The notes beneath the pieces are model-generated. The model worked only from the letters and a program-made list of their open reading frames with translations, ran no database searches and was not told where the DNA came from. A DNA stretch of 52,059 bases from Nitrospirota bacterium (lineage in GTDB: Bacteria > Nitrospirota > Thermodesulfovibrionia > Thermodesulfovibrionales > UBA6898): NCBI GenBank assembly GCA_016215155.1, contig JACRLQ010000020.1, positions 1-52,059 of the forward strand. Reading direction: 5' to 3'. Shown here piece after piece: positions 4,593 through 23,134 of this stretch. Numbering within the stretch: the first letter of the stretch is position 1; each line of letters opens with the position of its first letter. A program made the position numbers and the translations under genes.

Positions 4593-4602
4593 GAGGATGA
4601 AG

Positions 4603-6471: not shown

Positions 6472-7145
6472 GACACGGCGAGACAGCCGGCGGCGAAACA
6501 AAAACGTACAAGGGAAGTCTCGATGTCCCCCTGTCCGATAACGGCATACGTCAGGTCGAGCAGTCCGCGGCGTTCGTGCTGGAGCATATCCGCGTCTCCT
6601 CGATTCTGAGGCAGCAGAGCTATTTGAGAGACATACATACCGACGGGCCGGAAATAAACGGGGAAAGACAACCCTCAGCGCGGCTGGATGCCGTCTATAC
6701 CTCTGACCTTGGCCGGGCAGTAAAAAGCGGCGAAATCATAGCCGCTCCCCATAATGTCATCCCGGTCAGTATGCCTGAACTGCGGGAGCGCAATTTCGGC
6801 GTATGGGAAGGGATGAGCTTTATCGAGATCCGGGACCAATTCCCCGGGGAGTTTGATGCCTGGGCCGGCAACCCGCTAAAATTCAGTCCCGTAGGAGGGG
6901 AAAGCACGCTTGAAGTAAATGAGCGGGTGCTTGACGCCATGGGCAAAATCCTTTCGGCCCATAGGGGAGAGACGATCGCAATAGTGGCGCACGGAGGGGT
7001 GAACCGCATAGTCCTCTGTCACGTACTGGGCATGCCGCTCGAAAATATATTCCGGATAGAGCAGGATCATGCTGCCGTGAATGTCATAGAATTCTGGGGA
7101 GAGACCCCGGTTGTGAAGCTCATCAACGGGGGTGTCAATGGCTAA
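6447..7145 (+). CDS. cobC: Alpha-ribazole phosphatase CobC, with an insertion
   Basis: This histidine-phosphatase superfamily protein removes the phosphate from alpha-ribazole phosphate or adenosylcobalamin phosphate. RHGET at residues 9-13 holds the catalytic His. ERNFGVWEG carries the general acid and AHGGVNR the second catalytic His. It is 232 aa, about 30 residues longer than usual. The extra segment lies at about residues 46-80, between a helix and the conserved DAVYTSDLGRA, and is rich in polar residues; I do not see clear palindromic DNA in it. The gene overlaps cobS by 25 bases and cbiP by a few bases. Confidence 0.85.
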   Translation: MVTTLYLIRHGETAGGETKTYKGSLDVPLSDNGIRQVEQSAAFVLEHIRVSSILRQQSYLRDIHTDGPEINGERQPSARLDAVYTSDLGRAVKSGEIIAAPHNVIPVSMPELRERNFGVWEGMSFIEIRDQFPGEFDAWAGNPLKFSPVGGESTLEVNERVLDAMGKILSAHRGETIAIVAHGGVNRIVLCHVLGMPLENIFRIEQDHAAVNVIEFWGETPVVKLINGGVNG

Positions 7146-8673
7146 GGCGCTGATGATTCTCGGCACCGGATCAGGCGCCGGTAAAAGTCTCATAGTCGCG
7201 GCCTTCTGCCGTATTTTTCGGGACATGGGACTGAATGTCGCGCCTTTCAAGGCCCAGAATATGGCGCTCAATTCCTTTATTACGGCCGGCGGCGGCGAGA
7301 TCGGAAGGGCGCAGGCGCTCCAGGCCGAAGCGGCGGGGATTGAACCCACCGTGGACATGAACCCCGTGTTGCTTAAGGCCTCAGGAGAAATGGGTTCCCA
7401 GGTGATACTCCAGGGCAGGGTCCATTCGATGATGAAGGCGACCGAGTATTACGCCTTCAGGAAAGAGGCATGGGAAGTTGTTCAAAATTCTTATGCCAGG
7501 CTTTCGAAGACCTTCGACATGATCGTTCTTGAAGGGGCCGGCAGCCCCGCCGAGATAAACCTTATGGATGTGGACATTGTCAATATGTCCATGGCAAAAC
7601 ATGCAAAGGCCCCCGCCTTGCTTATAGGAGACATAGATAAAGGCGGGGTCTTCGCCTCGCTTTACGGCACAGCCAAACTCCTTGGGAGGGACCGAAGGCA
7701 TATCAAGGGTTTCGTCATCAACAAGTTCCGGGGCGACCCCGAAATCCTCAGGCCGGGCCTCGATATGATAAAGGACAAAACCGGCATACCGGTAGTCGGG
7801 GTACTTCCTTACGTCCATGACCTCGGCCTTCCTGAAGAGGATGGGCTGTCCCTGTCACATGGGGCAAGGGGGCGGGGTAACGGCGCTAATGATATCCGGA
7901 TCGTCATAGTGAGACTTAAATATATATCGAATTTCACGGATTTCGATCCGCTCGGGCACGAGCCTGATGTCGAACTTGTTTATTCTATCAACCCTTCTGA
8001 TATAGAAAATGCCGACATGGTCATAATTCCCGGGTCTAAAAATACCGTAAAAGATCTTCTTTTGCTCAGGGAACTCGGCATCGACAAAAGCATAAAAAAA
8101 TCGTTCGCAAAAGGCAACGAAATTACAGGCATCTGCGGAGGATACCAGATGCTCGGAAGAAAGATCCTTGACCCGTATCATTCGGAAAGTCCGCATAAGG
8201 AGGTCGAGGGTCTGGGACTCCTTAATATCGAGACCGTTTTCGGTAAAGAAAAGACAACCTGTCAGGCAGAGGCGGAAATCGTCGGGGATCAGGGATCGGG
8301 GATCAGGGGTCAGGACCCGGATAATATTATTCTCAAAGGGTATGAAATCCATATGGGGGTGAGCAGCGGCGACATCGGACTTTTTAAGATCAGGAGGCTC
8401 CATGATGACTCAACCTCCGACCTTCAACCCTCAACTACTCTGTTGGACGGCTCAGCCAATAAAAACTGCTGGGGGACATATCTGCACGGGATCTTCGATA
8501 ACAATGCCTTCAGAAGGCTGCTTCTCAACCGGATCAGGGCAAAAAAGGGTCTGCCGTCAATGACCCCGTCCTTCGACTATTCAGAGATGAAGGAAAGGGC
8601 GCTGGACAACCTTGCTGCAATTGTCCGGGAACATATCGATATGGAATTCATAAAAAGGACCCTGAGGCTGTGA
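7138..8673 (+). CDS. cbiP: Adenosylcobyric acid synthase CbiP (CobQ)
   Basis: CbiP amidates the b, d, e and g side chains of adenosylcobyrinate diamide using glutamine and ATP. The N-terminal ATPase domain has GTGSGAGKS near residue 10 and APFKAQNMALNSF. The C-terminal type-1 amidotransferase domain has GICGGYQMLGR (Cys nucleophile) and GTYLHGIFDN (catalytic His). Two low-complexity stretches, around residues 383-397 (GDQGSGIRGQ) and 426-435 (TSDLQPSTTL), are encoded by short tandem-like DNA (GGGATCAGGGATCGG and CCTTCAACCCTCAAC) and look inserted. ATG at 7138 is chosen; GTG at 7132 is possible. The stop overlaps cbiB by 4 bases. Confidence 0.93.
   Translation: MAKALMILGTGSGAGKSLIVAAFCRIFRDMGLNVAPFKAQNMALNSFITAGGGEIGRAQALQAEAAGIEPTVDMNPVLLKASGEMGSQVILQGRVHSMMKATEYYAFRKEAWEVVQNSYARLSKTFDMIVLEGAGSPAEINLMDVDIVNMSMAKHAKAPALLIGDIDKGGVFASLYGTAKLLGRDRRHIKGFVINKFRGDPEILRPGLDMIKDKTGIPVVGVLPYVHDLGLPEEDGLSLSHGARGRGNGANDIRIVIVRLKYISNFTDFDPLGHEPDVELVYSINPSDIENADMVIIPGSKNTVKDLLLLRELGIDKSIKKSFAKGNEITGICGGYQMLGRKILDPYHSESPHKEVEGLGLLNIETVFGKEKTTCQAEAEIVGDQGSGIRGQDPDNIILKGYEIHMGVSSGDIGLFKIRRLHDDSTSDLQPSTTLLDGSANKNCWGTYLHGIFDNNAFRRLLLNRIRAKKGLPSMTPSFDYSEMKERALDNLAAIVREHIDMEFIKRTLRL
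8284..8314. repeat. Short G-rich repeat tract inside cbiP
   Basis: GGGATCA, GGGATCG, GGGATCA and GGGGTCA follow one another in near-tandem and stay in frame in cbiP. A related tract, CACTGACCACTGACCAG, occurs in cbiD near 16541. They look like repeat DNA captured in coding sequence at a loop. Confidence 0.45.
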
Positions 8674-9644
8674 TAGGGCCGCTGGAGCTTACCCTTGCCT
8701 TTCTGCTGGACCTGGCGATAGGGGACCCCAGGTGGCTTCCGCATCCTGTAAGGATTATCGGCAGCGCTGTCACACGCCTGGAAAATCTCCTCAGGCCCCG
8801 CCTCACCGGGAGCAGGGAAAAGATGGCGGGCGTTGTCCTTGTCGTCCTTATCGTCCTGCCCTCAGCCGGTGTGATCGCATTAGTCGAGAGGCTGCTTCGA
8901 ACCGAAGGGGGCATCCCGATGGTCGTCGGCAGAGCGGTGATCATATATCTTGTCGGCACCACCCTCGCGCTCCGCGAACTTACGGCCTCCGCGGTTAAAG
9001 TCATAAAAGCGGTGAAGGCCGGCATGGCTGATGAGGCCAGGGCGGATCTGGGTATGATCGTAGGAAGGGACACTAAAACACTCACAGACGACGGCGTACT
9101 CAGAGCAACGATCGAGACCCTCGCCGAAAATCTCTCTGACGGAATAATCGCCCCGGTTTTCTACCTTGCGATCGGAGGACTGCCGCTTGCGATCGCCTAT
9201 AAAGCGGTCAATACCCTTGACTCAATGGTCGGCTATAAAAATGAAAGATATATAAGGTTCGGATGGGCGGCCGCAAAATTGGACGATATCGCGAACTACA
9301 TCCCCGCAAGGGTCTCGGGACTGCTTATAGCGCTTGCCTCCTTTATTGTCTTCCGGTCGGTTTCGATAGCCGGATATTCTTTTAAGACTATGCTGAGGGA
9401 CGGCAGAAACCATACGAGCCCAAACAGCGGCATACCGGAATCCGCGATGGCGGGGGCATTGGGGGTCAGGCTGGGCGGGCCTTCGACTTATGGGGGCATG
9501 GTCGTTGACAAGCCATATATCGGTGATTCAAGGAACGACGATTATCTTGCCGCCTCGAACACGGCGGTCACCATTGTTTTTGCGGCCTCGGTCATGTCCG
9601 TGGCCGCTGCCGTATTTTCCCTTGCAGTAAGGAACATACAATGA
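8670..9644 (+). CDS. cbiB: Adenosylcobinamide-phosphate synthase CbiB
   Basis: CbiB attaches (R)-1-amino-2-propanol phosphate, made by CobD, to adenosylcobyric acid in the membrane. Family motifs are DLAIGDPRWLPHPVRIIG at residues 14-31, GRDTKTLTD near 130, ETLAENLSDGIIAPVFY, NTLDSMVGYKNERY, PNSGIPESAMAGALGVRLGG and the hydrophobic segments between them. The 324-aa length is normal. The start is GTG at 8670, overlapping the TGA of cbiP (GTGA), and the end overlaps cobD by 4 bases. Confidence 0.95.
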   Translation: MIGPLELTLAFLLDLAIGDPRWLPHPVRIIGSAVTRLENLLRPRLTGSREKMAGVVLVVLIVLPSAGVIALVERLLRTEGGIPMVVGRAVIIYLVGTTLALRELTASAVKVIKAVKAGMADEARADLGMIVGRDTKTLTDDGVLRATIETLAENLSDGIIAPVFYLAIGGLPLAIAYKAVNTLDSMVGYKNERYIRFGWAAAKLDDIANYIPARVSGLLIALASFIVFRSVSIAGYSFKTMLRDGRNHTSPNSGIPESAMAGALGVRLGGPSTYGGMVVDKPYIGDSRNDDYLAASNTAVTIVFAASVMSVAAAVFSLAVRNIQ

Positions 9645-10702
9645 AAACGCATGGCGGCAATGTTTATACGGCCTCACTGGCAACGGGTATCCCCGTAACA
9701 CGCCTGCTGGATTTCAGCGCTTCGATTAATCCCCTCGGCCTTTCAAAGGCGACAGTCGCTGCCATAAGAGAGGGAATTGGTCTGGTCCCTCATTATCCGG
9801 AGCCCTTCGCCGGGTCGCTCGCCTCCGCTATAGCGGGACATTTCAAAATCTCTGCCGCCTCCCTCCTATGCGGAAACGGGAGCACAGAGCTTATTTATCT
9901 TATACCGAGGGTGCTTAAACCAAAGACCGTTCTGGTTACGGCCCCTGCTTTTTCCGAGTACGAAAAGGCGTGCGGAGCAGGCAGTATCAGACCGAAAATT
10001 AAAATTCTCGCGTTGAAAAAGGAAGACAATTTCGATATAGATCCGGCGAGGTTCATCCAGTCGATGAGAGGCTGTGACATGGCCTTTCTCTGCAATCCCA
10101 ATAATCCTACAGGGAGACTTCTCAGGAAAAAAGACGTTATCAAAATCGCCGTGGCCGCCCGGAAATCAGGATGTTACCTTGTCGTCGATGAGGCGTTTAT
10201 CGATTTCTGCCCAAATGAATCAGTTATACAACAGGTCAAACGAAACCCTTTCCTTATAGTCCTCCGGTCGATGACCAAGTTCTATGCCCTCGCGGGCCTT
10301 AGGATCGGGTTCGGCGTCTTCCCGCTTAAGCTGGCCGCTGAGATTAAAAAACAGAAAGAACCATGGACGATAAATATTATCGCCGATATGGCGGCAAGGG
10401 CCGCTCTTGAGGACTACGGATACAGACTTAAGACCCTTCGGATCATGAAGCTCGAAAAGCGGTTTATGGAAAAAGGCCTGTCGAACATGGGCATTACATT
10501 CGTCCCCTCAGAGGCAAATTACTATCTGCTCCGGCTTAAAAGCGCGGCGGAGGTCAGACGCACTCTGGAGTCGAAGGGAATTCTTGTAAGGGACTGCTCT
10601 AATTTCGAAGGTCTTGACGGGACATATATCCGGATTGCTGTCAGGTCAAGGGCGGAAAATTCAATGCTGCTTAGGGAGCTGTCGGGTATATGCGCGGGAT
10701 AG
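9641..10702 (+). CDS. cobD: Threonine-phosphate decarboxylase CobD
   Basis: This PLP-dependent aminotransferase-fold enzyme (fold type I, histidinol-phosphate aminotransferase relatives) decarboxylates L-threonine phosphate to 1-amino-2-propanol phosphate, the substrate of CbiB. Seen: HGGNVYTAS and LDFSASINPLG at the N-terminus, CNPNNPTGRLL near residue 148, VVDEAFIDFCP, and SMTKFYALAGLRIGFG with the PLP lysine. Placement directly after cbiB with ATGA overlap supports CobD rather than HisC. It overlaps cbiA by 13 bases. Confidence 0.93.
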   Translation: MKTHGGNVYTASLATGIPVTRLLDFSASINPLGLSKATVAAIREGIGLVPHYPEPFAGSLASAIAGHFKISAASLLCGNGSTELIYLIPRVLKPKTVLVTAPAFSEYEKACGAGSIRPKIKILALKKEDNFDIDPARFIQSMRGCDMAFLCNPNNPTGRLLRKKDVIKIAVAARKSGCYLVVDEAFIDFCPNESVIQQVKRNPFLIVLRSMTKFYALAGLRIGFGVFPLKLAAEIKKQKEPWTINIIADMAARAALEDYGYRLKTLRIMKLEKRFMEKGLSNMGITFVPSEANYYLLRLKSAAEVRRTLESKGILVRDCSNFEGLDGTYIRIAVRSRAENSMLLRELSGICAG

Positions 10703-12111
10703 TTATAGCGGGTACCCACAGCGGCTGCGGAAAGACGACCATCACGCTCGGCATACTTGCCGCCCTTAAGAAAAAAGGGCTTAAGGTCCAGTCGTTTAAG
10801 ACCGGCCCTGATTTCATCGACTCCGGCCTTCACCGTATGATCACGGAAAGACCTTCCCGGAACCTCGACCTCTGGATGTGCGGTGAAGACTATGTAAAGG
10901 ATTGCTTCCGCCGCAATTCGGCTGACGCCGATATCTCAGTGGTAGAGGGTGTCATGGGGCTTTATGACGGGTCTCTCAGCACCGCCTCTCTTTCTGCCTG
11001 CCTTGGCCTGCCGGTCATTCTTGTGATCGATGCCTTCGGCATGGCGGAGACAGCCGGGGCTATAACAAAAGGTTTTCTCCAGAGCGCCTCTGACAAGGGA
11101 ATAAATTTGGCAGGTGTTATTTTTAACAGGGTAGCATCTGAAAACCACCTTAGTCGTCTGATCGGCGGGGTACGGGATATCAAGGTCCTCGGGCATCTCC
11201 CCAGGGACCTTGATTTCGAAATCCCTCACAGGCATCTCGGACTGACCACGGCGGAGGAGTATCCCCTCGCTGAGGAAAATATCGGCCGACTCGCGGACAA
11301 CGTATTAAGGCATATTGATATTGAGGAAATTGTAAAAATTCGTCACTCCGGTAAAAACGGGAGTCAAGAGACCTGCAACCTCCATAAAAGACTGGATTCC
11401 GGCTTACGGCCTGCCGGAATGACGGCACAAATCAGATTGGCTGTAGCCCGTGACCGGGCCTTCTGTTTCTATTATGAAGACAATCTGGACCTTTTGAGGG
11501 CAGCGGGCGCCGAACTTGTTTCATTCAGCCCTCTGTCCGATACCGCTCTGCCGGAAAATATTTCGGGGCTTTATATAGGCGGAGGATATCCGGAGCTATA
11601 TGCCGGGCAGCTTTCCAAAAACGGAGTAATGCTCGATGCCATAAGGGCATGGGCGGAATCCGGAAGACCTCTTTACGCGGAGTGCGGGGGCCTCATGTAT
11701 ATCTCCGAAGGCATACATGATTTTGACGGCAACTTCTTCAGGATGGCAGGTGTCTATCCCTTCGAGACGCTGATGAAAAAAGGGAGGGCAAGGCTGGGCT
11801 ATCGTGAGGTCATGCTTAAAGAAGACTGTATCGCAGGTAAAAAAGGACAGAGGCTCCGGGGCCACGAATTTCACTATTCCGAGATCGTAACGGAGACCAT
11901 GAAGGCCTCTTCCGATCGGACCCTTTACTCACTCATGAACAGCTCGGGGGACATCCTTTCAGACGAGGGCTTTTCTCAGAAAAAAACCCTCGCCAGTTAT
12001 GTCCATCTCCATTTCGGAAGCAACCCCGGCATAGCTTCGGAGCTTGTCAATTCATGCAGAGCTGTTGTCCCCTCTCCCCTGGAGGGAGGGGCTAGGGCGA
12101 AGGGGATTTAA
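10690..12111 (+). CDS. cbiA: Cobyrinate a,c-diamide synthase CbiA, with repeat-derived insert
   Basis: CbiA amidates the a and c side chains of cobyrinate using ATP and glutamine. The N-terminal domain has the P-loop GTHSGCGKTT at residues 7-16, FKTGPDFIDSGLH and VEGVMGLYDG. The C-terminal amidotransferase has YIGGGYPELYA, YAECGGLMYI (Cys nucleophile) and SYVHLHFGS (His). Residues 218-245 are encoded exactly by an 84-bp palindromic repeat element (11341-11424), sitting in the linker between the two domains. The last 16 residues (AVVPSPLEGGARAKGI) come from another palindromic repeat, which also supplies the reading frame to the stop. Both insertions avoid the catalytic parts, so the enzyme is probably functional. 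Confidence 0.93.
   Translation: MRGIVIAGTHSGCGKTTITLGILAALKKKGLKVQSFKTGPDFIDSGLHRMITERPSRNLDLWMCGEDYVKDCFRRNSADADISVVEGVMGLYDGSLSTASLSACLGLPVILVIDAFGMAETAGAITKGFLQSASDKGINLAGVIFNRVASENHLSRLIGGVRDIKVLGHLPRDLDFEIPHRHLGLTTAEEYPLAEENIGRLADNVLRHIDIEEIVKIRHSGKNGSQETCNLHKRLDSGLRPAGMTAQIRLAVARDRAFCFYYEDNLDLLRAAGAELVSFSPLSDTALPENISGLYIGGGYPELYAGQLSKNGVMLDAIRAWAESGRPLYAECGGLMYISEGIHDFDGNFFRMAGVYPFETLMKKGRARLGYREVMLKEDCIAGKKGQRLRGHEFHYSEIVTETMKASSDRTLYSLMNSSGDILSDEGFSQKKTLASYVHLHFGSNPGIASELVNSCRAVVPSPLEGGARAKGI
11341..11424. repeat. 84-bp palindromic element inserted in frame in cbiA
   Basis: The element begins CGTCACTCCGG and ends CCGGAATGACG, an 11-bp inverted terminal pair with one mismatch. It includes CTGGATTCCGG, typical of bacterial CGTCATTCC...GGAATGACG interspersed repeats. 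Its length is exactly 28 codons, so cbiA stays in frame. A repeat of the same type, with ends CGTCACCCC and GGGAATGACG, lies at 36102-36174 outside genes. Confidence 0.8.
12067..12105. repeat. Palindromic GC-rich repeat at the cbiA 3' end
   Basis: TCCCCTCTCCCCTGGAG followed by GGAGGGGCTAGGGCGAAGGGG forms an imperfect palindrome of the CCCTCTCCC type also seen at 21853-21894 and in cbiD. It encodes the last residues of CbiA. Confidence 0.65.
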
Positions 12112-12150
12112 TGTTTAGTAATTCGATCCAATTGAAAGGATAATATAACA

Positions 12151-13155
12151 ATGGAACATATAATACTCATCGGTCACGGAAGCCCGAAAAAAGAGGCCAA
12201 CAATATGGATATTGTCGGGCAGTTACTCCATGGCGCCATCCACCCGGGATGCTCAAACTCGTGCGTGCGCTCGGCATACCTGGAATTCGGTAAACCCGAC
12301 ATCATGGGCGCGATTAAACAATGCGTCGAGGACGGGGCAAAAAAGATAATCGCCCATCCTTATTTTTTGAGCTCCGGCATGCATGTTACAAAGGACATCC
12401 CTGAAATAATCGCCGGGGCAAGAGGCATGTTTCCGGATGTTGAGCTTTTATATACCGAACCGCTCGGCATACATGACAAGCTCGTGGAAATAGTAATCGA
12501 GAGGATAAAAAACGTCAGATTCAACGTCCCTCTTGATATCGAAAAAAGGAGCTTCGAGATAATCTCCGAAGAGACGGACTTAAGCGGCCTGACTTCGGAA
12601 CAGGCGCCGATCGTAAAGAGGGTCATTCATTCCACCGCCGACTTTGAGTTTAAGAATAACCTGGTCTTTCATCCTGATGCGGTCAGGGCCGGCGTCGAAG
12701 CGATAAGGGCGGGCAGGGATATTCTTACCGATATAGAGATGGTCAGGGCCGGGATAAATAAAAAGCTTCTCGACCAATGGGGGGGCAGGGTCATCTGCGG
12801 AATAACTGACGATGAAGTCGTTAAGATTTCAGAGACGACGGGACGCACCCGTTCGGAAATAGCAATGGAGATGGGGCTCACTGATAATATCGGCATAGTT
12901 GCCATAGGCAACGCTCCCACGGCCCTTTTGAAGGTGATCGAGATTTTAACAGGCGAGGGCGTATCGCAATACGCCCCTACAAATTCTATGCCTCTTATTG
13001 TCGGCGTACCTGTGGGTTTTGTGAAGGCGCTTGAGTCAAAGGCCCTGCTTGCCGCCCAGAATTTCCCGTTTATTACAAACCTCAGCAGAAAGGGCGGAAC
13101 ACCGGTGGCAGTGGCCATAGTAAACGCCCTCCTTAAAATGGCCGCGGAAAAATGA
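12151..13155 (+). CDS. cbiXC: CbiX-CbiC fusion: cobaltochelatase plus cobalt-precorrin-8 methylmutase
   Basis: Residues about 1-125 are a short CbiX-type chelatase that inserts cobalt into sirohydrochlorin: LIGHGSPKKEAN with the metal-binding His near residue 8, AHPYFLSSGMHVTKDIP with the second His, and EPLGIHDKLV. Residues about 130-334 are CbiC, which migrates the C11 methyl to C12 to form cobyrinate: IVKRVIHSTADFEF with the catalytic His, FHPDAVRAG, DIEMVRAGI, AIGNAPTALL and GVPVGFVKALESKALL. The fusion joins the first and the last ring-modification steps of the pathway. A 39-base gap before it, with AAAGGA 12 bases ahead of the ATG, is the widest gap between genes of the operon; an internal promoter is possible but not seen. 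Confidence 0.9.
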   Translation: MEHIILIGHGSPKKEANNMDIVGQLLHGAIHPGCSNSCVRSAYLEFGKPDIMGAIKQCVEDGAKKIIAHPYFLSSGMHVTKDIPEIIAGARGMFPDVELLYTEPLGIHDKLVEIVIERIKNVRFNVPLDIEKRSFEIISEETDLSGLTSEQAPIVKRVIHSTADFEFKNNLVFHPDAVRAGVEAIRAGRDILTDIEMVRAGINKKLLDQWGGRVICGITDDEVVKISETTGRTRSEIAMEMGLTDNIGIVAIGNAPTALLKVIEILTGEGVSQYAPTNSMPLIVGVPVGFVKALESKALLAAQNFPFITNLSRKGGTPVAVAIVNALLKMAAEK

Positions 13156-13901
13156 GAAACAGACTTGCAGTTTCACTTTTCACTTTTCACTTTTTACCCT
13201 GTGTTGTCCCTTCCGCATACGCAATGCATATCTCCGAAGGGATATTGCCTTTTAACTGGGCCGCTCTCTGGTTTGCCGTTGCCGCGCCTTTTGTTGCATG
13301 GGGGCTTTTGAGATTCAACAAAATCTCATCCGTGGATCTGTCGTTTAAGCCCCTTGTGGGCCTTCTGGCCGCGGTAGTCTTCATTATCTCCTGCATGCCG
13401 GTGCCTGTCCCTACCGCGGGCACATGCTCCCATCCCTGCGGCACAGGGATATCGGCTGTTCTTCTTGGACCGGCGTTAAGCATCCTGATCGCCTCTGCGG
13501 CCCTGCTCATCCAGGCGCTCTTTCTTGCCCACGGAGGGCTCAGCACCTGGGGCGCGGACATCCTATCGATGGGAGTGGTCGGGTCGATTACGGGTTTCCT
13601 TGTATTTAAGTTCTTGCGTGTTATAAAAATGAACATCTCAATCTCAGCCTTCATGGCCGGTCTGATGGCCGACTGGGCAACATACCTTACGACATCTGCG
13701 GTTCTTGCTTTAGGGATCAGAGGAGATGCGCCGTTTTTGCCTCTTTTCTGGAAAATATCCGCGGCCTTTATTCCGGCTCAGCTCCCCCTTGGAATACTCG
13801 AAGGCGCGATGACCGCTGGGATGGTTGTATTGCTTTACAAAAAACGGCCCGACCTGCTTGTCAAGATGCGGGTCCTGAAGCCCGAAGAGGTGACTCCATG
13901 A
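13152..13901 (+). CDS. cbiM: Cobalt ECF transporter substrate-binding subunit CbiM
   Basis: CbiM is the membrane S-component of the CbiMNQO cobalt importer. The mature family start MHISEGILP appears at residue 25, not 1. It is preceded by a 24-residue hydrophobic leader ending SAYA, which looks like a signal peptide cleaved just before Met-His. This matters because the N-terminal Met-His of CbiM coordinates Co(II). Other motifs are VPTAGTCSHPCGTG with Cys/His and the hydrophobic helices of the family. The leader is partly encoded by tandem CACTTTT repeats (13174-13195). It overlaps cbiXC and cbiN by 4 bases each. Confidence 0.92.
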   Translation: MRNRLAVSLFTFHFLPCVVPSAYAMHISEGILPFNWAALWFAVAAPFVAWGLLRFNKISSVDLSFKPLVGLLAAVVFIISCMPVPVPTAGTCSHPCGTGISAVLLGPALSILIASAALLIQALFLAHGGLSTWGADILSMGVVGSITGFLVFKFLRVIKMNISISAFMAGLMADWATYLTTSAVLALGIRGDAPFLPLFWKISAAFIPAQLPLGILEGAMTAGMVVLLYKKRPDLLVKMRVLKPEEVTP

Positions 13902-14233
13902 AGGTTGAAGGGGGAAGGTTGAAGGGGGAAGGAACAGGATCAGCATTGCTTTTTATAGTTTCGCTTGCGGCCTCTTGCCTGCTTATTACCAATGTTGTTA
14001 TTGCCGCTGATAAGTGGGAGGGGGTCGATAAATCGGTCGTCGAAAAATATGCCGCAGACCATGGCAGGCAGCCCAGAGAACCCCTTATAAACACCGATCA
14101 GGGGGACCTGCTCCTTTTTGTCTTTCTCGTTGCCGGGACGGCCGGAGGTTTTGCCGCCGGATATTACTGGAGGGTACTGACCGAAAAAAAACGTTCTGAT
14201 CCCCGGAAAGACAAGAGTGGGGGACGGGGCTAG
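13898..14233 (+). CDS. cbiN: Cobalt transport protein CbiN-like small subunit
   Basis: This small 111-aa protein has two hydrophobic segments, residues about 15-36 (ALLFIVSLAASCLLITNVV) and about 68-90 (LLLFVFLVAGTAGGFAAGYY), with a roughly 30-residue periplasmic loop between them and a basic C-terminus. That topology and its place between cbiM and cbiQ fit CbiN, which stabilises CbiM and stimulates cobalt uptake. Similarity to classical CbiN is weak, so it could be a functional analogue. The first 14 residues (MKVEGGRLKGEGTG) are encoded by tandem GAAGGTTGAAGGGG repeats and are not CbiN-like. ATG at 13898 overlaps the cbiM stop. Confidence 0.65.
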   Translation: MKVEGGRLKGEGTGSALLFIVSLAASCLLITNVVIAADKWEGVDKSVVEKYAADHGRQPREPLINTDQGDLLLFVFLVAGTAGGFAAGYYWRVLTEKKRSDPRKDKSGGRG

Positions 14234-14236
14234 ACT

Positions 14237-14992
14237 ATGCATGTATTCCGGGACATCGATAAACAAAACTCCTGGCTTTCGGCAATGGACGCCAGGGTGA
14301 AGCTGGTATTTGCCCTGGCTGTGCTTTGCATGGTCATCAGCTATAAAGGCTTCGCTTTCCCTCTGATGGTGCTCGCCTGCTGCCTCGGGGGCTGCCTCAT
14401 GATAAGGGTGCCGCTTCGTAAATTTCTTCTGAGGTTTTCGGAGCCTATGCTTATTGCATCTGTTGTTATTATCCTTAAGTTTTTCTTTTCCGGCCAGGAG
14501 GCCTTATTTTCGGCCCGGTTCGCCGGCATCACGATAACCGGATATACTGATGGACTCAGGGAAGGCCTCGCAATAGCATGCAGGATCATGGGAGCCGTCT
14601 CGGTCATGGCCTTACTTGGCTTTACAACATCATTTACGGACCTGATGTCCGCGCTTTCGTGGTTAAGAGTGCCTAAGGGTTTTGTAGAAATTCTCATGTT
14701 CGCCTACCGCTATATATTCGTGATCTTCGAGGATGCGCAGGTCATATATACCGCCCAGAAAAACCGGCTGGGCTATGCCGGTGTAAGGAGGGGCCTCGTG
14801 TCTTTCGGCACGCTCGCCGGATCTCTTGTGCTCAAGGCATTTGAACGGAGCCATGCCATAACGGTCTCGATGATTCAGCGCGGGTATGACGGCAATATCC
14901 CGATGCTTCAGCACAGACCCTTCAGGCCGCTTGAGGTATTTGTATCGATATTGACTGTATGCGTTGTGGGAGTTGCATGGAAAATACTGTAA
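14237..14992 (+). CDS. cbiQ: Cobalt ECF transporter T-component CbiQ
   Basis: CbiQ is the transmembrane coupling subunit that links CbiM to the CbiO ATPase. It has the family's N-terminal amphipathic start (WLSAMDARVKLVFALAVL), several membrane helices, and the C-terminal coupling helices with the conserved Ala-Arg-Gly type motif region (LKAFERSHAITVSMIQRGYDG is seen in parts: KAFERSH and MIQRGYDG). The 251-aa length is normal. It begins 3 bases after the cbiN stop and its end overlaps cbiO. Confidence 0.92.
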   Translation: MHVFRDIDKQNSWLSAMDARVKLVFALAVLCMVISYKGFAFPLMVLACCLGGCLMIRVPLRKFLLRFSEPMLIASVVIILKFFFSGQEALFSARFAGITITGYTDGLREGLAIACRIMGAVSVMALLGFTTSFTDLMSALSWLRVPKGFVEILMFAYRYIFVIFEDAQVIYTAQKNRLGYAGVRRGLVSFGTLAGSLVLKAFERSHAITVSMIQRGYDGNIPMLQHRPFRPLEVFVSILTVCVVGVAWKIL

Positions 14993-15831
14993 GACTGTAC
15001 ATGGACATAAGGTCCTTCAAATATCCCGATGGGACGGTCGCCCTGTCGGACATGCTGATCGAGATTAAAAAGGGTGAGTTTGTCGGCATCCTCGGCTCAA
15101 ACGGTTCGGGCAAGACCACCTTTCTGAAGGTCATGGACGGCCTTTTCAAGGACGTAGATGGGGTCGTAATGCTGGACGGCACTGACATAAAAAAACTTAC
15201 ACCAGGGGAGATCTACCGGAAAGTCGGCCTTGTATTTCAAAACCCGGATGAACAGCTCTTTGCGCCGACCGTATTTGAAGATGTATCCTTTGGCCCCCTT
15301 AATATGGGTTTCTCCGGGGCCGAGACGGCAGAACGTGTCGAAGGGGCCCTGAGGGATGTTGATATGGAGTCCTTTGCCAAAAAGCCGATCCATAACCTCA
15401 GTTTCGGCCAGAAAAAAAGGGTATGCATTGCGGGCCTTCTTGCGATGGGCCACGAGATACTTCTGATGGATGAACCGACGGCCGGACTTGATCCCATGGG
15501 TGAGTACCGTATGATGCGACTTCTTACTGAACTTAACCTCAGAAAGGGGGTCACGATAGTGATGGCAACCCACAGCGTCGATCTTGTCCCGATATTTCTG
15601 AGCAGGCTCTTTATACTAAGCAAGGGGAGACTGATACGGGGTGGTTCGCCCGAGGAGGTCTTCACGGCCCCTGATGATATGGAACAGGTCAAGCTGAGGC
15701 TCCCCCATATCGCTGATATGATCTACAGGCTCAAGCACGAGGACGGGATAGGGTTCGAAAAGATACCGCTCAGTATCGGTGAGGCCCGGAGGGAGATATT
15801 AAGGATAATGGAAGAGGGGAAAAAAGGCTGA
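14977..15831 (+). CDS. cbiO: Cobalt ECF transporter ATPase CbiO
   Basis: CbiO is the ABC ATPase of the cobalt importer. Motifs in order: Walker A GSNGSGKTT, the Q-loop FQNPDEQLF typical of ECF ATPases, signature LSFGQKKRV, Walker B LLMDEPTAGLD and the switch His in MATHSVD. The ATG at 14977 (MENTVRLYMD) has GGGAG upstream and overlaps the end of cbiQ by 16 bases; an earlier ATG at 14959 and a later one at 15001 are possible. It is followed 3 bases later by cobA. Confidence 0.95.
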   Translation: MENTVRLYMDIRSFKYPDGTVALSDMLIEIKKGEFVGILGSNGSGKTTFLKVMDGLFKDVDGVVMLDGTDIKKLTPGEIYRKVGLVFQNPDEQLFAPTVFEDVSFGPLNMGFSGAETAERVEGALRDVDMESFAKKPIHNLSFGQKKRVCIAGLLAMGHEILLMDEPTAGLDPMGEYRMMRLLTELNLRKGVTIVMATHSVDLVPIFLSRLFILSKGRLIRGGSPEEVFTAPDDMEQVKLRLPHIADMIYRLKHEDGIGFEKIPLSIGEARREILRIMEEGKKG

Positions 15832-15834
15832 ATT

Positions 15835-16353
15835 ATGCGCAGAGGATATATACAGGTCTATACAGGTACGGGCAAAGGGAAGACTACCGCGGCGCTTGGG
15901 CTTGCGATGAGGGCCGCCGGCGCCGGGATGAAGGTGTTGATTATACAGTTCATCAAAAAAAGAAGATGCTCTGAACATAAGGCCCTTGAAAGATTTGAGG
16001 ACCTTATAACGATAAAACAATACGGCGAGGGGTTCATACTTAAAAGAAAGCCCAGCTCCTCCGACATTGAAGCCGCGAAGGCCGGACTTGAGGAGGCAAA
16101 GCAGGCAATACAGTCCCGCCTTTTTGGTATGGTTATCCTCGACGAGGCCAATATTGCGGTCAACCGGGGCCTCATAAGCCCTGATGAACTTGTCGGGCTC
16201 ATGGAGATGAAACCCGGGACAATGGAGCTCGTGATTACCGGCAGGTACGCTGACGAAAAGATCATCGAAAAGGCCGACCTTGTGACCGAAATGAGAGAGA
16301 TAAAACACTATAAAGAAAAAGGAATAAAGGCAAGGCGTGGCATCGAGTACTAA
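15835..16353 (+). CDS. cobA: Cob(I)yrinate a,c-diamide adenosyltransferase CobA (BtuR)
   Basis: This ATP:corrinoid adenosyltransferase adds the 5'-deoxyadenosyl group to Co(I) corrinoids. It is 172 aa, of the BtuR/CobA/CobO family: YTGTGKGKTTAALGLAMR (P-loop) at residues 9-26, IIQFIKK, VILDEAN as Walker B and LVITGRYA near the C-terminus. It follows cbiO by 3 bases and overlaps the GTG start of cbiD by 17 bases. Confidence 0.95.
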   Translation: MRRGYIQVYTGTGKGKTTAALGLAMRAAGAGMKVLIIQFIKKRRCSEHKALERFEDLITIKQYGEGFILKRKPSSSDIEAAKAGLEEAKQAIQSRLFGMVILDEANIAVNRGLISPDELVGLMEMKPGTMELVITGRYADEKIIEKADLVTEMREIKHYKEKGIKARRGIEY

Positions 16354-16437
16354 AAAATTAAGGACCGGCTTTACTACGGGAGCGTGCGCCGCTGCAGCAG
16401 CCAAGGCAGCGACCATGCTGCTACTTCAAAGCAGGGT

Positions 16438-16473
16438 CCCTCCCGCCCCTGACCACGTATCAGGCGGAGAGGG
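16438..16473. repeat. Palindromic repeat inside cbiD (first)
   Basis: CCCTCCCGCCCCTGACC and CAGGCGGAGAGGG are imperfect inverted arms. The segment encodes VPPAPDHVSGGEG, which has no counterpart in ordinary CbiD at this loop between an N-terminal helix and the next strand. Confidence 0.6.
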
Positions 16474-16654
16474 AAAGGTTGAGTATGTCGAGATCCCCTT
16501 CCCCGACGGAAGCAGGCATGCTTTTGCTATTATCCATCCGTCACTGACCACTGACCAGGATTCACCAGTTGCCAGGGCATCGGTGATCAAGGATGCAGGA
16601 GACGACCCTGATGTAACGAATAAGGCTGAGATAATAGCTGAGGCAAGATTGCTT

Positions 16655-16696
16655 CCCTCCGCCCGCCCTGCTCCCCCCGAGGGAGAGGGCAAGGGA
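16655..16696. repeat. Palindromic repeat inside cbiD (second)
   Basis: CCCTCCGCCCGCCCTG with GAGGGAGAGGGCAAGGG. AGGGAGAGGGCAAGGG at 16680-16695 is the exact reverse complement of CCCTTGCCCTCTCCCT at 21863-21878, so the two belong to one repeat family. It encodes PSARPAPPEGEGKG in frame. Confidence 0.7.
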
Positions 16697-17338
16697 AATA
16701 ATGAAGCCCGAAATACTGTTTTAATCAGAGGCGGCAAAGGGGTTGGCAGGGTGACCAAGCCGGGACTTTCGGTCCCTGTGGGTGAGCCGGCCATTAATCC
16801 GTCGCCCAGAGAGATGATAAAAAAAGCGGTTGCCGAGGCGCTGGAAGGATACGCGCTTCCGGACGCTGAGGTAATCGAGATAACGATCTCTGTACCTGAG
16901 GGAGAGGAACTTGCAAAAAAGACCCTCAATGCCAGACTCGGCATTATTGGCGGGATCTCTATCCTCGGCACGTCCGGAATCGTACGGCCGCTATCTGCCG
17001 AGGCGTGGACATCGAGCATTACAGCGGCCATGGACGTGGCAAGGGCCACAGGCTGCCGTGAGGTAGTACTGTCCGCCGGAAGACACACGTACGGCATGGC
17101 GCGATCGATCTCGGGCAGTGTGTCGCACACCTCAACCGCATGGGGATCGCTGTCCCAAAGGAGAGGGATTTCAATACCGCGCGGGAAATCTATGATTTTC
17201 TTATAAACACCTATGGGCTATCCTTGCCGATGCTCCGGAGGGTCTGTGTTTCCGCAAAGAAGTACGCGGAAGGTATTACAGGGGGTGTCCCGGTCGTTAC
17301 GCATCTTGTAACCTATGACGGGGATATAATAACTGACA

Positions 17339-18625
17339 GTGAATAAACTCCATGTCATGGGAATAGGCTACAGGCCGCTTACAGATCGCTGCGCGGAGGT
17401 CCTCAGTAAGTCAGATGTGGTCCTCGCGTCAAACAGGCTTCATGAGGTATTCATGCGCTATGAGGAGTTTCCTCTATTTGAGAAAAAGCTCAAGATCATA
17501 AATAATGTCGGAGAGACGATGGAATTCATCCGCGAAAATCTTGGTGAGTCCTCCATCGTGCTTCTTGCCTCGGGCGACCCGCTGTTTTTCGGCATAGGCA
17601 GGATGGCGGTCAGGGAATTCGGCCCTGATTCAGTCGAAATAATCCCCGATCTCTCAAGTATTCAGCCGGCCTTCTCGGCGATCAAGGAGACCTGGGACGA
17701 CGCCTTTTTGATCAGCCTTCACGGAGGGCCTGACCCGAACAAAAGACGTAGACTTAATTACGGGCTCTCTGATCTTCCTTCGCTGCTGCGGCTGCACCGC
17801 AAGATTGGTATACTGACCGACAGGGAAAATTCTCCCGTTGCCATTGCAAAGGCACTAGGGCGGGGAGAGGGCAGTCAGGCGGGCAATGAGGGGCCTGAGG
17901 ACATGATTTATGTATGTGAGAGGCTCGGATATCCTGATGAAAAGATCACCGTTGGGACTCCGGCGGAAATTGCTTCGGGGTCATTTTCAGATCCAAATGT
18001 CGTGATAATAAAAATGACCGGCTGGGTTGAGGAAAAATCTTCAGGCAATAATTCAACCACGGGGTTCGGCCTGACCGAGGATGAGATCGCCCACACCCGG
18101 GGCCTCATTACGAAGGACGAGGTCAGGGCCGTATCGATACATAAGTTAAGGCTTCCGGATGAAGGGGTGCTCTGGGATATCGGCGCGGGCTCGGGGTCGA
18201 TATCGATCGAGTCGGCGAGGATCTGTCCCCGGCTGAGGGTCTATGCCATAGAAAAAAATGATCTGCGCCTTTCGGATATACTGACGAATATAGCTTCTTT
18301 CGGCCTCCGGAACCTTGAGGCGGTCAAAGGTGAAGCGCCTGACATCCTAAAAGATATGCCGGTCCCTGACAGGGTCTTCATAGGAGGCGGAGGAGACCGG
18401 CTGCCGGATATCATGCGCGCTGTAATCGGGAAGATGGAAAAAGGGATAATAGTTTTAAACGCGATATCCCTCGAAACCCTCAATACCGCCATGCTTATAA
18501 TGTCTGACAGCGGACTTGATCCCGAAGTCTCACAGATCTCGGTTTCGAGATCGAAGGTCGTAAGCGGACAACGGCATATGACCGCGCTTAATCCCATATT
18601 TGTCGTAAGAGGTGTGAAAAAATGA
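17339..18625 (+). CDS. cbiET: CbiE-CbiT fusion: precorrin-6B/7 methyltransferase and decarboxylase
   Basis: This 428-aa protein joins CbiE (residues about 1-205, C5 methyltransferase) with CbiT (about 235-428, C15 methylation with decarboxylation of the C12 acetate), as in CobL. CbiE motifs are VMGIGYRPLT and LASGDPLFFGIG. The CbiT SAM-binding motif is LWDIGAGSGSISIESARI, then AIEKN and RVFIGGGGDRLPDI. GTG at 17339 overlaps the tail of cbiD by 8 bases. A Gly-rich segment near residue 175 (GRGEGSQAGNEG) may be repeat-derived. Confidence 0.93.
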   Translation: MNKLHVMGIGYRPLTDRCAEVLSKSDVVLASNRLHEVFMRYEEFPLFEKKLKIINNVGETMEFIRENLGESSIVLLASGDPLFFGIGRMAVREFGPDSVEIIPDLSSIQPAFSAIKETWDDAFLISLHGGPDPNKRRRLNYGLSDLPSLLRLHRKIGILTDRENSPVAIAKALGRGEGSQAGNEGPEDMIYVCERLGYPDEKITVGTPAEIASGSFSDPNVVIIKMTGWVEEKSSGNNSTTGFGLTEDEIAHTRGLITKDEVRAVSIHKLRLPDEGVLWDIGAGSGSISIESARICPRLRVYAIEKNDLRLSDILTNIASFGLRNLEAVKGEAPDILKDMPVPDRVFIGGGGDRLPDIMRAVIGKMEKGIIVLNAISLETLNTAMLIMSDSGLDPEVSQISVSRSKVVSGQRHMTALNPIFVVRGVKK

Positions 18626-19341
18626 AAAAAGGAAAGCTTTATGTAATAGGTGTCGGCCCGGGAGACCCGGAGCTGCTTACGATAAAGGGCCAGCGGCTTC
18701 TTAATTCCGTCTCCTCGATCTGTGTGCCCAAGGGCAGGGAGGAGGGCAGCAGCCTTGCGCTTTCGATCGTGAGCAAGGTTATTGATCTCGATGGTAAAGA
18801 AATTATCGAGGCCCATTTCCCTATGAGAAAAACGAGAGACAAAGAGCATGGGGACGAACTCGATATAAAGTGGAACGAGACCGTTGACATCGTGATGGCA
18901 AGACTGAATTCAGGCAAGGACATGGCCTTCATCACGATAGGCGACCCAACGATATACAGTACTTTTTTCTATCTATATGACAGGCTCCTAGGGATCGCCC
19001 CTGACCTCGATGTGGAGATCGTCCCGGGGGTCTCATCGATCAATGCCTCGGCCGCGAGGGCAAGGATCTCACTTGGGCTTGCAGACGAAAAGATTGCTAT
19101 ACTGCCGGCAACGTATGTCGCAAACCTAAAAGACATACTGGCTAAATTCGATACCGTCGTCCTTATGAAGGTCCACAGGGTCTTTGACAAGGTCGTTGGT
19201 ATTTTGGATGAGATGGGACTTTTATCAAACGCGGTCTATATAGCAAGGGCCGGGATGGCCGACGAAAAGATTTTTACGGATATCAGAAATATCAGGGAGG
19301 ACGACTTAAACTACTTTTCCCTGATGATCGTAAGGAGATGA
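18622..19341 (+). CDS. cbiL: Cobalt-precorrin-2 C20-methyltransferase CbiL
   Basis: CbiL methylates C20 of cobalt-factor II/precorrin-2, the first methylation after cobalt insertion. The uroporphyrin-III-type methyltransferase fold is shown by VIGVGPGDPELLTIKG at residues 8-23, FITIGDPTIYST near 97 and IVPGVSSINASAA near 130. The 239-aa length is typical. The ATG overlaps the cbiET stop (ATGA). The alternative, another tetrapyrrole methylase, is less likely because CbiF and CbiH are accounted for elsewhere and VCVPKG-type CbiL residues (ICVPKGREEGSSLAL) are present. Confidence 0.93.
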   Translation: MKKGKLYVIGVGPGDPELLTIKGQRLLNSVSSICVPKGREEGSSLALSIVSKVIDLDGKEIIEAHFPMRKTRDKEHGDELDIKWNETVDIVMARLNSGKDMAFITIGDPTIYSTFFYLYDRLLGIAPDLDVEIVPGVSSINASAARARISLGLADEKIAILPATYVANLKDILAKFDTVVLMKVHRVFDKVVGILDEMGLLSNAVYIARAGMADEKIFTDIRNIREDDLNYFSLMIVRR

Positions 19342-19346
19342 TGGAT

Positions 19347-20105
19347 ATGTCCATGGTTTATTTTATCGGCGCGGGGCCGGGTGACCCGGAACTCATCACA
19401 GTTAAGGGAAGGAGACTGCTCGATAGCGCGGATGTCGTTATCTATGCCGGCAGTCTTGTCAACCCTGAAATCCTCAAAGGCATATCAGCGGAGATCCACG
19501 ATTCGGCCTCCATGGACCTCGAAGAGATCATCGCTGTTATCGAGCGGTCCGTTACGAAAGGACTTATGGTCGTCAGACTCCATACCGGCGACACCTCCTT
19601 TTATAGCGCAATATCCGAACAGATAGAGAGATTGAGGCAATTGGATATAAGCTTTGAGGTGGTCCCGGGAGTCTCGTCCGCGCTTGCGGGCGCGGCCGCC
19701 CTCGGACAGGAGCTCACCATACCCGAGATAAGCCAGACAGTGATCTTTACCCGCATGGAGGGGCGCACCCCGGTCCCCCCGCTTGAGCGGCTGGGAAGTC
19801 TTGCCGGGCACAGGGCGACGATGGTCATCTTCCTCAGTGTCGGGATGGTAGAGACGGTAAGGGACGAGCTCCTTAAGGGGTATGACGCGGAGACCCCGTT
19901 TGTAGTAATCGAGAAGGCCTCATGGCCAGGGCAGAAGATCGTAAGGGGGAGACTAAAGGATATCGTCGAAATCGTAAAAGAGGCGGGGATTAAAAAGACC
20001 GCGCTCATCTATGTCGGAGAGTCCCTGAAGGCCTCGGAGGGCCCTCTGGGAAAGGAATCGAAGCTCTATAACAAGGACTTCAGCCATGAGTACAGAAGGC
20101 AATAA
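19347..20105 (+). CDS. cbiF: Cobalt-precorrin-4 C11-methyltransferase CbiF
   Basis: CbiF methylates C11 of cobalt-precorrin-4. Seen: YFIGAGPGDPELITVKGRRL, VIYAGSLVNPEIL (typical of CbiF/CobM), RLHTGDTSFYSAI, EVVPGVSSALAGAAALGQEL and FTRMEGRTPVP. Several start codons cluster here (19338, 19341, 19347, 19353). I chose 19347 because AAGGAG ends 9 bases before it. 19338 would overlap the cbiL stop. The 3' end overlaps cbiGH by 20 bases. Confidence 0.93.
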   Translation: MSMVYFIGAGPGDPELITVKGRRLLDSADVVIYAGSLVNPEILKGISAEIHDSASMDLEEIIAVIERSVTKGLMVVRLHTGDTSFYSAISEQIERLRQLDISFEVVPGVSSALAGAAALGQELTIPEISQTVIFTRMEGRTPVPPLERLGSLAGHRATMVIFLSVGMVETVRDELLKGYDAETPFVVIEKASWPGQKIVRGRLKDIVEIVKEAGIKKTALIYVGESLKASEGPLGKESKLYNKDFSHEYRRQ

Positions 20106-21852
20106 CATAGCATTATTTTTCATCACGGAGAAAGGCCGCCTCCTTGCCCAAAAGCTTGCCGGACTATATCCGGATATGAAGATTACGAAGTACTCAGCGG
20201 CCTCGGTCGCCAAAAAATGGCAGGAGCACAGGGGCTTCATATTTATCATGGCAGCCGGGATTGTTGTAAGGACTGTCGCACCGCTATTGAAGGACAAAAA
20301 GACCGACCCTGCAGTAGTCGTTCTCGATGAGGCAGGAAGGTTCGCGATAAGTCTCCTGAGCGGCCATATCGGCGGGGCGAACGAGTTGGCTTCGGAGATT
20401 GCCGGGTTTCTGGGGGCAGAGGCGGTAGTCACAACCGCGTCTGATGTAAACGGTCTGGTTTCAATTGACCTTTGGGCGCAAAAAAAAGGGTTGGTCATCG
20501 AAGACTGGGAGATGCTGCCTCATGCCGGAAGGCGCTTTATTGACAGTGGGTCGCTTAAAGTATACGACGAGACAGGGATAGACCTTCCGCCGGGATTTAC
20601 GAAAACCGATGGACCCGCTGATGCGGACCTGCTGATAACCAACAAAAATCTGCCTTCAGTCAAAGGAGGCCTTTACCTGAGACCGAAGAACCTCGTTATA
20701 GGAATTGGCTGCAATAGCGGGACATCGGAAAAGGAGATCGAACTCGCTGTAAAAAGGGTCCTCAAGGAAAATGACCTTTCTTTCAATTCGGTCAGCCTGA
20801 TTGCGACGATCGACCTTAAGGCAGAAGAACCGGGGCTTCGAAAATTCTGCGCCGAATATTCACTCGATCTTATTACGTTCAGCCCGAATGAGTTAAACTC
20901 GGTAAACGGCGTGGCTGAGTCCGCTGCCGCCTTTAAGGCCACGGGGGCAAAGGCCGTGGCCGAACCTGCCGCCCTGCTCGGCGCGGGTTCCGACAGGCTT
21001 CTTGCAAAAAAACGGAAGTCCGGAAATGTTACCATAGCTGTCGCTGAAATAAATAAAGGAGTTAACGCAGTGGAAAAAGGCAAACCGGATAAAACAGGAA
21101 AAATTTACGTCGTCGGGACCGGGCCGGGTGATATATCCCATATAACACCTTACGCGCAGCGGGTCATAAAGGACTCGGACGTGGTGGTAGGCTACGGCAC
21201 TTACATCGAACTTATCAAAGACCTGCTGAAAGGCAAAGAGGTCTTCTCTACGGGGATGACACAGGAGATAGACAGGTGCAGAAAGGCTGTAGAGCTTGCC
21301 TCGGGAGGCAGGACCGTGTCGGTGATAAGCGGAGGCGACCCTGGTATTTACGCGATGGCCGGGCTCGTCTTTGAGCTGCTGAGACAGCAGGGCGAGTCAG
21401 CCCCAATCCCTTCGGTCGAGATAGTCCCCGGCATATCGGCGCTCAACGCCTGTGCTTCAAGGCTTGGGGCGCCTCTTATGCATGACTTCGCCTCGATCAG
21501 CCTGTCCGACAGACTCACCTCCTGGGAGGTCATCGAAAAAAGGCTCGAAGCCGCCTCAATGGCTGACTTCGTGATCGTGCTTTATAACCCCAAAAGCAAA
21601 GGCCGCACGGAGCAGATCGGAAAGGCCCGGGACATTGTCATGAAACATCGGGGTCCTGATACTCCGGTTGGCATAGTGCGGGGCGCCATGAGGGAAAACG
21701 AATCGATCGTAGTTACTGACCTTAGGCATATGCTTGATGCGGAGATCGACATGCAGTCGAGCGTTGTTATAGGAAACTCTAACACGTTTATCTGGAACAA
21801 CCTTATGATCACTCCAAGGGGATATGAAAAGAAAAAGCAGTTCAGTAAATAA
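20086..21852 (+). CDS. cbiGH: CbiG-CbiH fusion: cobalt-precorrin-5A hydrolase and C17-methyltransferase
   Basis: Residues about 1-330 are CbiG, which opens the delta-lactone and releases the C20 unit as acetaldehyde: FIMAAGIVVRTVAPLLKDKK, VVVLDEAGRFAISLLSGHIGGAN, VIGIGCNSGTS and the C-terminal VNGVAESAA region. Residues about 338-588 are CbiH, which methylates C17 and contracts the ring: VVGTGPGDISHITPYA, VVGYGTYIELIKD, VISGGDPGIYAMAGL, EIVPGISALNACASRLGAPL, FVIVLYNPKSKGR. The two act in neighbouring steps, so the fusion is sensible. It overlaps cbiF by 20 bases and the next gene by 29 bases. Confidence 0.93.
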   Translation: MSTEGNNIALFFITEKGRLLAQKLAGLYPDMKITKYSAASVAKKWQEHRGFIFIMAAGIVVRTVAPLLKDKKTDPAVVVLDEAGRFAISLLSGHIGGANELASEIAGFLGAEAVVTTASDVNGLVSIDLWAQKKGLVIEDWEMLPHAGRRFIDSGSLKVYDETGIDLPPGFTKTDGPADADLLITNKNLPSVKGGLYLRPKNLVIGIGCNSGTSEKEIELAVKRVLKENDLSFNSVSLIATIDLKAEEPGLRKFCAEYSLDLITFSPNELNSVNGVAESAAAFKATGAKAVAEPAALLGAGSDRLLAKKRKSGNVTIAVAEINKGVNAVEKGKPDKTGKIYVVGTGPGDISHITPYAQRVIKDSDVVVGYGTYIELIKDLLKGKEVFSTGMTQEIDRCRKAVELASGGRTVSVISGGDPGIYAMAGLVFELLRQQGESAPIPSVEIVPGISALNACASRLGAPLMHDFASISLSDRLTSWEVIEKRLEAASMADFVIVLYNPKSKGRTEQIGKARDIVMKHRGPDTPVGIVRGAMRENESIVVTDLRHMLDAEIDMQSSVVIGNSNTFIWNNLMITPRGYEKKKQFSK

Positions 21853-23134
21853 CCTCCCCTCACCCTTGCCCTCTCCCTCAAGGAGAGGGGGTGACGTCTG
21901 CTCCGGAAACGTCGCCTTTTTATGGGATGAATCATTTCTATGGGGAATTATGGCTTATAATGCCCTCTTAAAAGCAGGACTGCCGTTTGATCTGGTTAGT
22001 TCAGACGACATAAAAAAGGGGCAGCTCGAAAATTATACCATGCTTTTTGTGCCCGGCGGATGGTCGTCAAACAAGCTCAAGGCGCTCGGGGACGAAGGCA
22101 TCGAAGCTGTCCGGAGGTTTGTCCGGGATGGCGGCAATTATCTGGGTTTCTGTGGAGGGGCCGGGCTTGCAACCCGGGAAGGCATCAGCCTTCTTGATAT
22201 TCGTCGGAAGCCCACAAAAGAAAGGGTCCCGAGCTTCAGCGGCGGGATCGCGCTTTCGACAAGGCAACATGCCATCTGGGGCGGCATACGCAAACCGGTT
22301 TTCCATGCGTGGTGGCCGCCCCAGTTCGATATATGCGATGAAGATGTCCGGGTCCTGGCATCATATAAAAAAGCTTTGCCTGATGCCTTCACTTCGGATC
22401 TGTGCATAGGGGATGTCGGCCCACTTTCTGACTGGGCTGAGCTCGAAAAGACATACAGGATCAACCTGGACCCGGAGCGCTTGTCAGGCGAGCCCGCGGT
22501 GGTCTCAGGTAAATGTGGGAAAGGGACAGTGGTCCTTTCACTCATACATTTTGATACCCCTGATGACCCGGATGCGAAAACGGTGCTAATAAACCTTTGG
22601 AACGTCCTCTCCGGCGGTAAAACCGCAAAGACAAAACAGGCCTATTGCCGGACTGCCAAATCTGAGGGGGCGGCCCTTGACATCCGGACTAAAACCCTTC
22701 TGGACGATCTCGACAATGCCGTGGATGACCTTATAACTTTTGGAACCCGGAACTTCCTCTGGTTTTGGAGAAGCCCGCTTCTTCTACAATGGCGGCGCGG
22801 CATCCGTGGCCTCGAATACAATACCCTCTATAGCATGGTCCGCTCGGTGACTGATGAATGCAGGCGGGAAAACCTCCCTGAGGATGTTGGAAAGAAATTG
22901 CAAAAAATAAAAAAACGGTTAGTGCCATTCATTGAAAGGTCAAAACAGCTCCTGATATTTGAAAGGTTTGCCATGCAGCAGGGACATATTACCTTCGAAC
23001 AGTCCCACGACTCTAAAATCCAGAGTATAAGGTCGGAACTGTTCTCCTCATCAAAAAGCTATGGTGGACTTTTTAAGGAAATACTTGACGAGATCGATTC
23101 TTTATTATTCGAATTGTTGCATACGAATTATTAA
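21824..23134 (+). CDS. Glutamine-amidotransferase-like protein (biotin-protein-ligase N-terminal type), role unknown
   Basis: Residues about 29-265 resemble the BPL_N domain, a class I amidotransferase-like fold: NVAFLWDESFLWGIMAYNAL, LFVPGGW, VRRFVRDGGNYLGFCGGAGLAT with Cys110 at the nucleophile elbow, VSGKCGKGTVVLSLIHFD with a His in the expected late position. Residues about 290-436 are helical and charged (KTLLDDLDNAVDDLITFG, EILDEIDSLLFELLH) and unrecognised. The start at 21824 lies inside cbiGH, and residues about 10-22 (NLPSPLPSPSRRG) come from a palindromic repeat, so the true start is uncertain. It is the last gene of the cobamide run, so a cobamide-related amidation or hydrolysis is possible but unproven. 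Confidence 0.7.
   Translation: MKRKSSSVNNLPSPLPSPSRRGGDVCSGNVAFLWDESFLWGIMAYNALLKAGLPFDLVSSDDIKKGQLENYTMLFVPGGWSSNKLKALGDEGIEAVRRFVRDGGNYLGFCGGAGLATREGISLLDIRRKPTKERVPSFSGGIALSTRQHAIWGGIRKPVFHAWWPPQFDICDEDVRVLASYKKALPDAFTSDLCIGDVGPLSDWAELEKTYRINLDPERLSGEPAVVSGKCGKGTVVLSLIHFDTPDDPDAKTVLINLWNVLSGGKTAKTKQAYCRTAKSEGAALDIRTKTLLDDLDNAVDDLITFGTRNFLWFWRSPLLLQWRRGIRGLEYNTLYSMVRSVTDECRRENLPEDVGKKLQKIKKRLVPFIERSKQLLIFERFAMQQGHITFEQSHDSKIQSIRSELFSSSKSYGGLFKEILDEIDSLLFELLHTNY
21853..21894. repeat. Palindromic repeat at the cbiGH / amidotransferase junction
   Basis: CCCTCTCCCTCAAGGAGAGGG is an imperfect palindrome flanked by CCTCCCCTCACCCTTG and GGGGTGACG, seen in pieces. It follows the cbiGH stop codon directly and encodes N-terminal residues of the next protein. 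Bases 21863-21878 match the repeat in cbiD. Confidence 0.75.

Follow-up and report, generated by a model that had tools for sequence, protein, structure and literature searches.

The interruption of cbiD in the 52,059-nt stretch of Nitrospirota DNA analysed here (the window) is very likely an assembly artefact or a minority variant, with the cbiD of the organism itself intact, and the bacterium has probably kept its capacity for B12 synthesis. We favour an artefact because the sole dnaG of the same assembly carries the same lesion and a true break in that gene would be incompatible with life.

The cobamide cluster of the window is interrupted at cbiD

A single long cobamide gene cluster runs along the + strand of the window behind a cobalamin riboswitch, from a thiC-like gene (2710) to a cbiG-cbiH fusion (end 21852; Table 1). 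Apart from cbiD, every gene of the cluster is open and of full length, in line with the original prediction, to which the other genes looked intact. Its description of an otherwise complete pathway stands for the remaining cluster genes and fails for cbiJ (precorrin-6A reductase, PF02571), which is absent from the window's genome. None of the 27 family genomes examined has cbiJ, not even those with otherwise complete clusters, so its absence is uninformative on the cbiD lesion. In total, cbiJ is missing from 56 of the 61 genomes searched. The thiC-like gene stands first behind the riboswitch and ahead of cobU-cobT (region 2437-4068). Its best model is ThiC, the BzaB model scoring below its cut-off, and its position may point away from thiamin and towards the anaerobic synthesis of benzimidazole, the lower ligand. 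At the other end of the cluster, the BPL_N-like gene after cbiGH (21824-23134) keeps its position in those relatives whose clusters are readable that far.

CbiD is the cobalt-precorrin-5B C1-methyltransferase. The window gene shares sequence with CbiD (TIGR00312, PF01888) as well as its neighbours and its operon position between cobA and cbiET, but it lacks 172 nt (57 codons and 1 base) of the C-terminal half when compared with every intact relative examined, and its frame is changed. The open reading frame at 16337-17206 matches positions 1-209 of 254 in PF01888 and 1-213 of 346 in TIGR00312, the latter with a score over the cut-off; beyond the match it continues in the wrong frame up to a stop. 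The rest of the gene lies in a second frame that is open from 17083 to 17343 and closes with a stop codon at 17344-17346, and a complete C-terminal half is not found in any single frame. Compared with the CbiD of a relative (G010), the N-terminal part matches residues 2-229 at 68% identity and the C-terminal part residues 284-372 at 70%.

The size of the gap follows from the spacing of two conserved motifs. Each of the eight relatives measured has exactly 171 nt after the Arg codon of 'S-x-G-R' before the Thr codon of 'THVRHG' begins, whereas in the window these codons share one base. The broken gene, the loss of about 55-60 codons and the displacement of the remainder into another frame, all claimed in the original prediction, are therefore borne out. 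Its placement of the break after a YGM motif was mistaken, as the break lies at 17081-17084, a few codons before 'YGM'. We likewise rejected 'HTYGM' as a CbiD motif, since it is the 'THVRHG' stretch translated in the wrong frame.

Table 1. Coordinates of the cobamide cluster in the window, of the other interrupted genes of the assembly and of CobF loci in relatives. Locations without a prefix are window positions.
Feature	Location	Strand	Basis or remark
Cobalamin riboswitch, upstream of cluster	2437..2644	+	RF00174, 86 bits; the only one in the genome
thiC-like, cobU, cobT, cobS, cobC, cbiP, cbiB, cobD	within 2710..16353	+	all open, full length
cbiA, cbiX-cbiC, cbiM, cbiN, cbiQ, cbiO, cobA	within 2710..16353	+	all open, full length
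cbiD, N-terminal part in its own frame (codons 1-249)	16337..17083	+	PF01888, TIGR00312; 78/78 invariant residues present
cbiD junction, 172 nt missing; flanking codons share one base	17081..17084	+	spacing in relatives; nucleotide alignment with G010
Out-of-frame tail of the broken ORF, to first stop	17084..17206	+	ORF reading
cbiD, C-terminal part in a different frame, including stop codon	17083..17346	+	likeness to G010 CbiD; 12/12 invariant residues present
cbiE-cbiT fusion, cbiL, cbiF, cbiG-cbiH fusion	17339..21852	+	all open, full length
BPL_N-like protein	21824..23134	+	PF09825; synteny
dnaG, 61 nt missing, frame change	C35:15804-17422 (L258)		73% and 60% identity on the two sides
ftsH, 64 nt missing including the Walker A segment	L321 4894-6629		an intact second copy exists
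gspL-like gene, about 152 nt missing	L259 16141-17017
CobF locus	L051 14782-15600
CobF locus	L052 14022-14834
CobF loci	L054-L058		between cobA and cbiET
CobF loci	G009:C164, G045:C20

The cbiD fragments have not decayed

A set of invariant residues was defined from 14 CbiD proteins of relatives, comprising 90 residues outside the missing block and 25 inside it. All 90 residues outside the block survive in the two fragments, which argues that cbiD has not decayed. The fragments contain no further stop or frame change, and neutral drift, if there has been any, amounts to less than about 0.015 substitutions per site.

The appearance of real pathway loss in this order is illustrated by the genome G043. 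Its decayed cob cluster also contains a cbiD shortened by deletion but differs from that of the window in having suffered multiple deletions (cbiA, cbiX-cbiC, cbiQ, cbiD-cbiL, cbiG) and in carrying a riboswitch-linked btuBFCD-like import operon within the locus. Along this locus (L214 703-19856), the import and nucleotide-loop genes are intact, and several deletions interrupt the corrin-ring genes; 31 codons from the start of cbiD adjoin the last 32 of cbiL.

The only dnaG of the assembly carries the same class of lesion

We surveyed about 1.03 Mb (~30%) of the assembly using genes of relatives, of G004 and of E. coli. Besides cbiD (-172), this stretch of the assembly contains three clean internal frame-changing deletions with good identity on either side, located in dnaG, in ftsH and in a gspL-like gene (Table 1). 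DNA primase is indispensable, and a true break of dnaG would be lethal. A search of the whole genome found the two pieces of one dnaG as the only DNA primase gene, so the same class of lesion is present in an essential single-copy gene of this assembly. Full argumentative force belongs to dnaG alone because the genome holds an intact ftsH paralogue; we dropped the ftsH lesion as proof from an essential gene for that reason, and it adds by similarity only.

The ftsH and gspL-like deletions nevertheless point to an artefact, as do runs of 7-85 Ns that occur in the assembly, several of them inside genes. Because of these runs, the assembly was probably scaffolded across local gaps. Either two pieces would have been joined with the loss of 172 nt of cbiD, or a minority deletion variant would have become the consensus; a scaffold join or gap-closing step is the presumed cause, and gaps closed without N would produce exactly such deletions. 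Weighing against an artefact, the excess of clean deletions over a control assembly is not significant alone (4/172 here vs 0/139 in G004; Fisher p=0.13). For this control, 0.54 Mb of G004 was sampled and no comparable lesion was seen at 139 places. Three calls were left uncounted. One, a -7 call in G004, lies in a match of only 33-47% identity and was not inspected; the others are a net +22 call in the start region on L305 and, in the window's genome (G000), an antisense ORF of the window.

The original prediction had left three readings of the broken cbiD, namely lost synthesis, a replacement enzyme or misassembly, and had leaned towards recent loss or error. Misassembly is the best supported of the three, by the same class of lesion in the only dnaG; the lean holds up for error and finds no support for loss.

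B12-dependent proteins are encoded without a BtuC-type importer

Methylmalonyl-CoA mutase and a methyltransferase corrinoid protein, both B12-dependent, are encoded in the window's genome. A BtuC-type (FecCD) corrinoid importer was not found there, the only match being a sub-threshold one of 24 bits. Strong matches to a BtuC-type (FecCD) permease are present in 22 of the 23 near-complete genomes of the order that lack cbiC, compared with 10 of 29 that possess it (Fisher p=6.8e-6). The FecCD permease family is involved in siderophore transport, too. Because of this ambiguity, the stretches examined around the permeases were checked for cobalamin riboswitches, which were present in G001, G002, G004, G010, G031, G043 and at one of the two G003 loci. 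Since no FecCD permease was found although B12-dependent proteins are encoded, the organism looks, judged from its genes, like a prototroph, BtuC-type (FecCD) importers being the uptake type searched. The missing importer and the undecayed cbiD fragments both argue for an artefact and contradict a settled loss of de novo synthesis.

A genuine and very recent deletion of cbiD, after which the lineage would now be a corrinoid auxotroph with its other pathway genes still undecayed, appears unlikely. It would fit the clean break, with about 3 bases of possible microhomology at most, and the junction shows no repeat able to explain a misjoin, nor does the window contain any N, both of which speak against an artefact. 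Two of four genus mates lack both cbiC and cbiD, so loss does occur in the genus. There is also a published parallel in Dehalobacter restrictus PER-K23, where a 101-bp deletion truncates cbiH in an otherwise complete pathway (PMC4285132). The two cases are alike in that one internal deletion affects one gene and the rest of the corrinoid pathway is present. They differ in that D. restrictus, which is in culture, is auxotrophic for corrinoids and possesses transporters for them (PMC4285132), whereas in the window's genome no BtuC-type importer was found and the assembly has the same lesion in dnaG. The importer is near-universal in the pathway-less genomes of the order, and its absence here, together with the B12-dependent enzymes and the lesion in the only dnaG, stands against a genuine deletion. 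That the deletion is real and fixed, as the first step of pathway loss in a fresh corrinoid auxotroph that imports corrinoids without a BtuC-type importer, seems quite improbable.

CobF appears to replace CbiD in relatives and is missing from the window's genome

The original prediction had proposed to look in the genome for a second cbiD or a cobF, and a genome-wide search shows that neither exists. No second cbiD was detected with the Pfam profile or with a full-length relative, and no protein reached the cut-off of 195.8 for CobF (TIGR02434), the best match (77 bits) being the organism's own CbiL. With neither a second CbiD nor CobF, the known replacement enzyme, present, the suggested replacement of CbiD is excluded as far as CobF is concerned.

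CobF is the precorrin-6A synthase, which installs the C-1 methyl group and is described for the aerobic pathway. It resembles CbiD in its role in C-1 methylation and sits in the cbiD slot of relatives. cbiC is present in 31 of the 61 genomes of the order, the window's own counted; 20 of these 31 have CbiD, nine have CobF over the curated cut-off and none has both. The remaining two are G006, where a contig end cuts the locus, and the window's genome. In the seven CobF clusters with a readable slot, CobF lies exactly between cobA and cbiET. The nine CobF-positive, CbiD-negative genomes score 274-314 bits with TIGR02434, and those clusters that are readable far enough retain CbiG, CbiX and other anaerobic-type genes. 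In these nine genomes, CobF looks like a non-orthologous replacement of CbiD. We found no description of such a swap in the open-licence papers searched. Because these clusters combine an enzyme known from the aerobic pathway with the anaerobic CbiG, this clean exchange inside one order merits a biochemical test.

The window's genome also encodes a stand-alone protein of 170 aa (C81:81060-81566; L064, L065) with weak similarity to the C-terminal half of CbiD and no significant Pfam or NCBIfam family. The match had stops in the alignment, and we rejected it as a degraded cbiD copy since the 170-aa protein is intact. Relatives carry about 40 loci for such a protein (L066-L094), spread over most genomes of the family. 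Genomes with no corrin pathway (G002, G004) have it, the carriers including two genus mates without cbiC and cbiD, and elsewhere it occurs beside an intact CbiD. Its presence without any corrin pathway and its co-occurrence with intact CbiD rule it out as a CbiD substitute. Hence, even with nine relatives carrying CobF in place of CbiD and a protein similar to the CbiD C-terminal half encoded in the genome itself, it is highly improbable that a different enzyme does the job of CbiD in this organism.

That neither fragment has decayed would also fit a cbiD that still functions, by frameshifting or by the joint action of its two fragments, but this is hardly conceivable, as frameshifting is unable to restore 57 codons holding 25 invariant residues and the C-terminal part begins without a start codon.

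Implications

A lone broken gene in an otherwise complete pathway is often taken as a sign of auxotrophy or as a hint of an unknown enzyme. For the cbiD studied here, either call is probably wrong, as three cheap checks show: a search for the type of importer that true auxotrophs carry, a decay test on the fragments and a look at whether an essential gene of the assembly bears the same lesion. Users of this genome should be wary of any single broken gene in it. With the lesion very likely confined to the assembly or to a minority variant, the living population would carry an intact cbiD and would make cobamides de novo via the anaerobic pathway.
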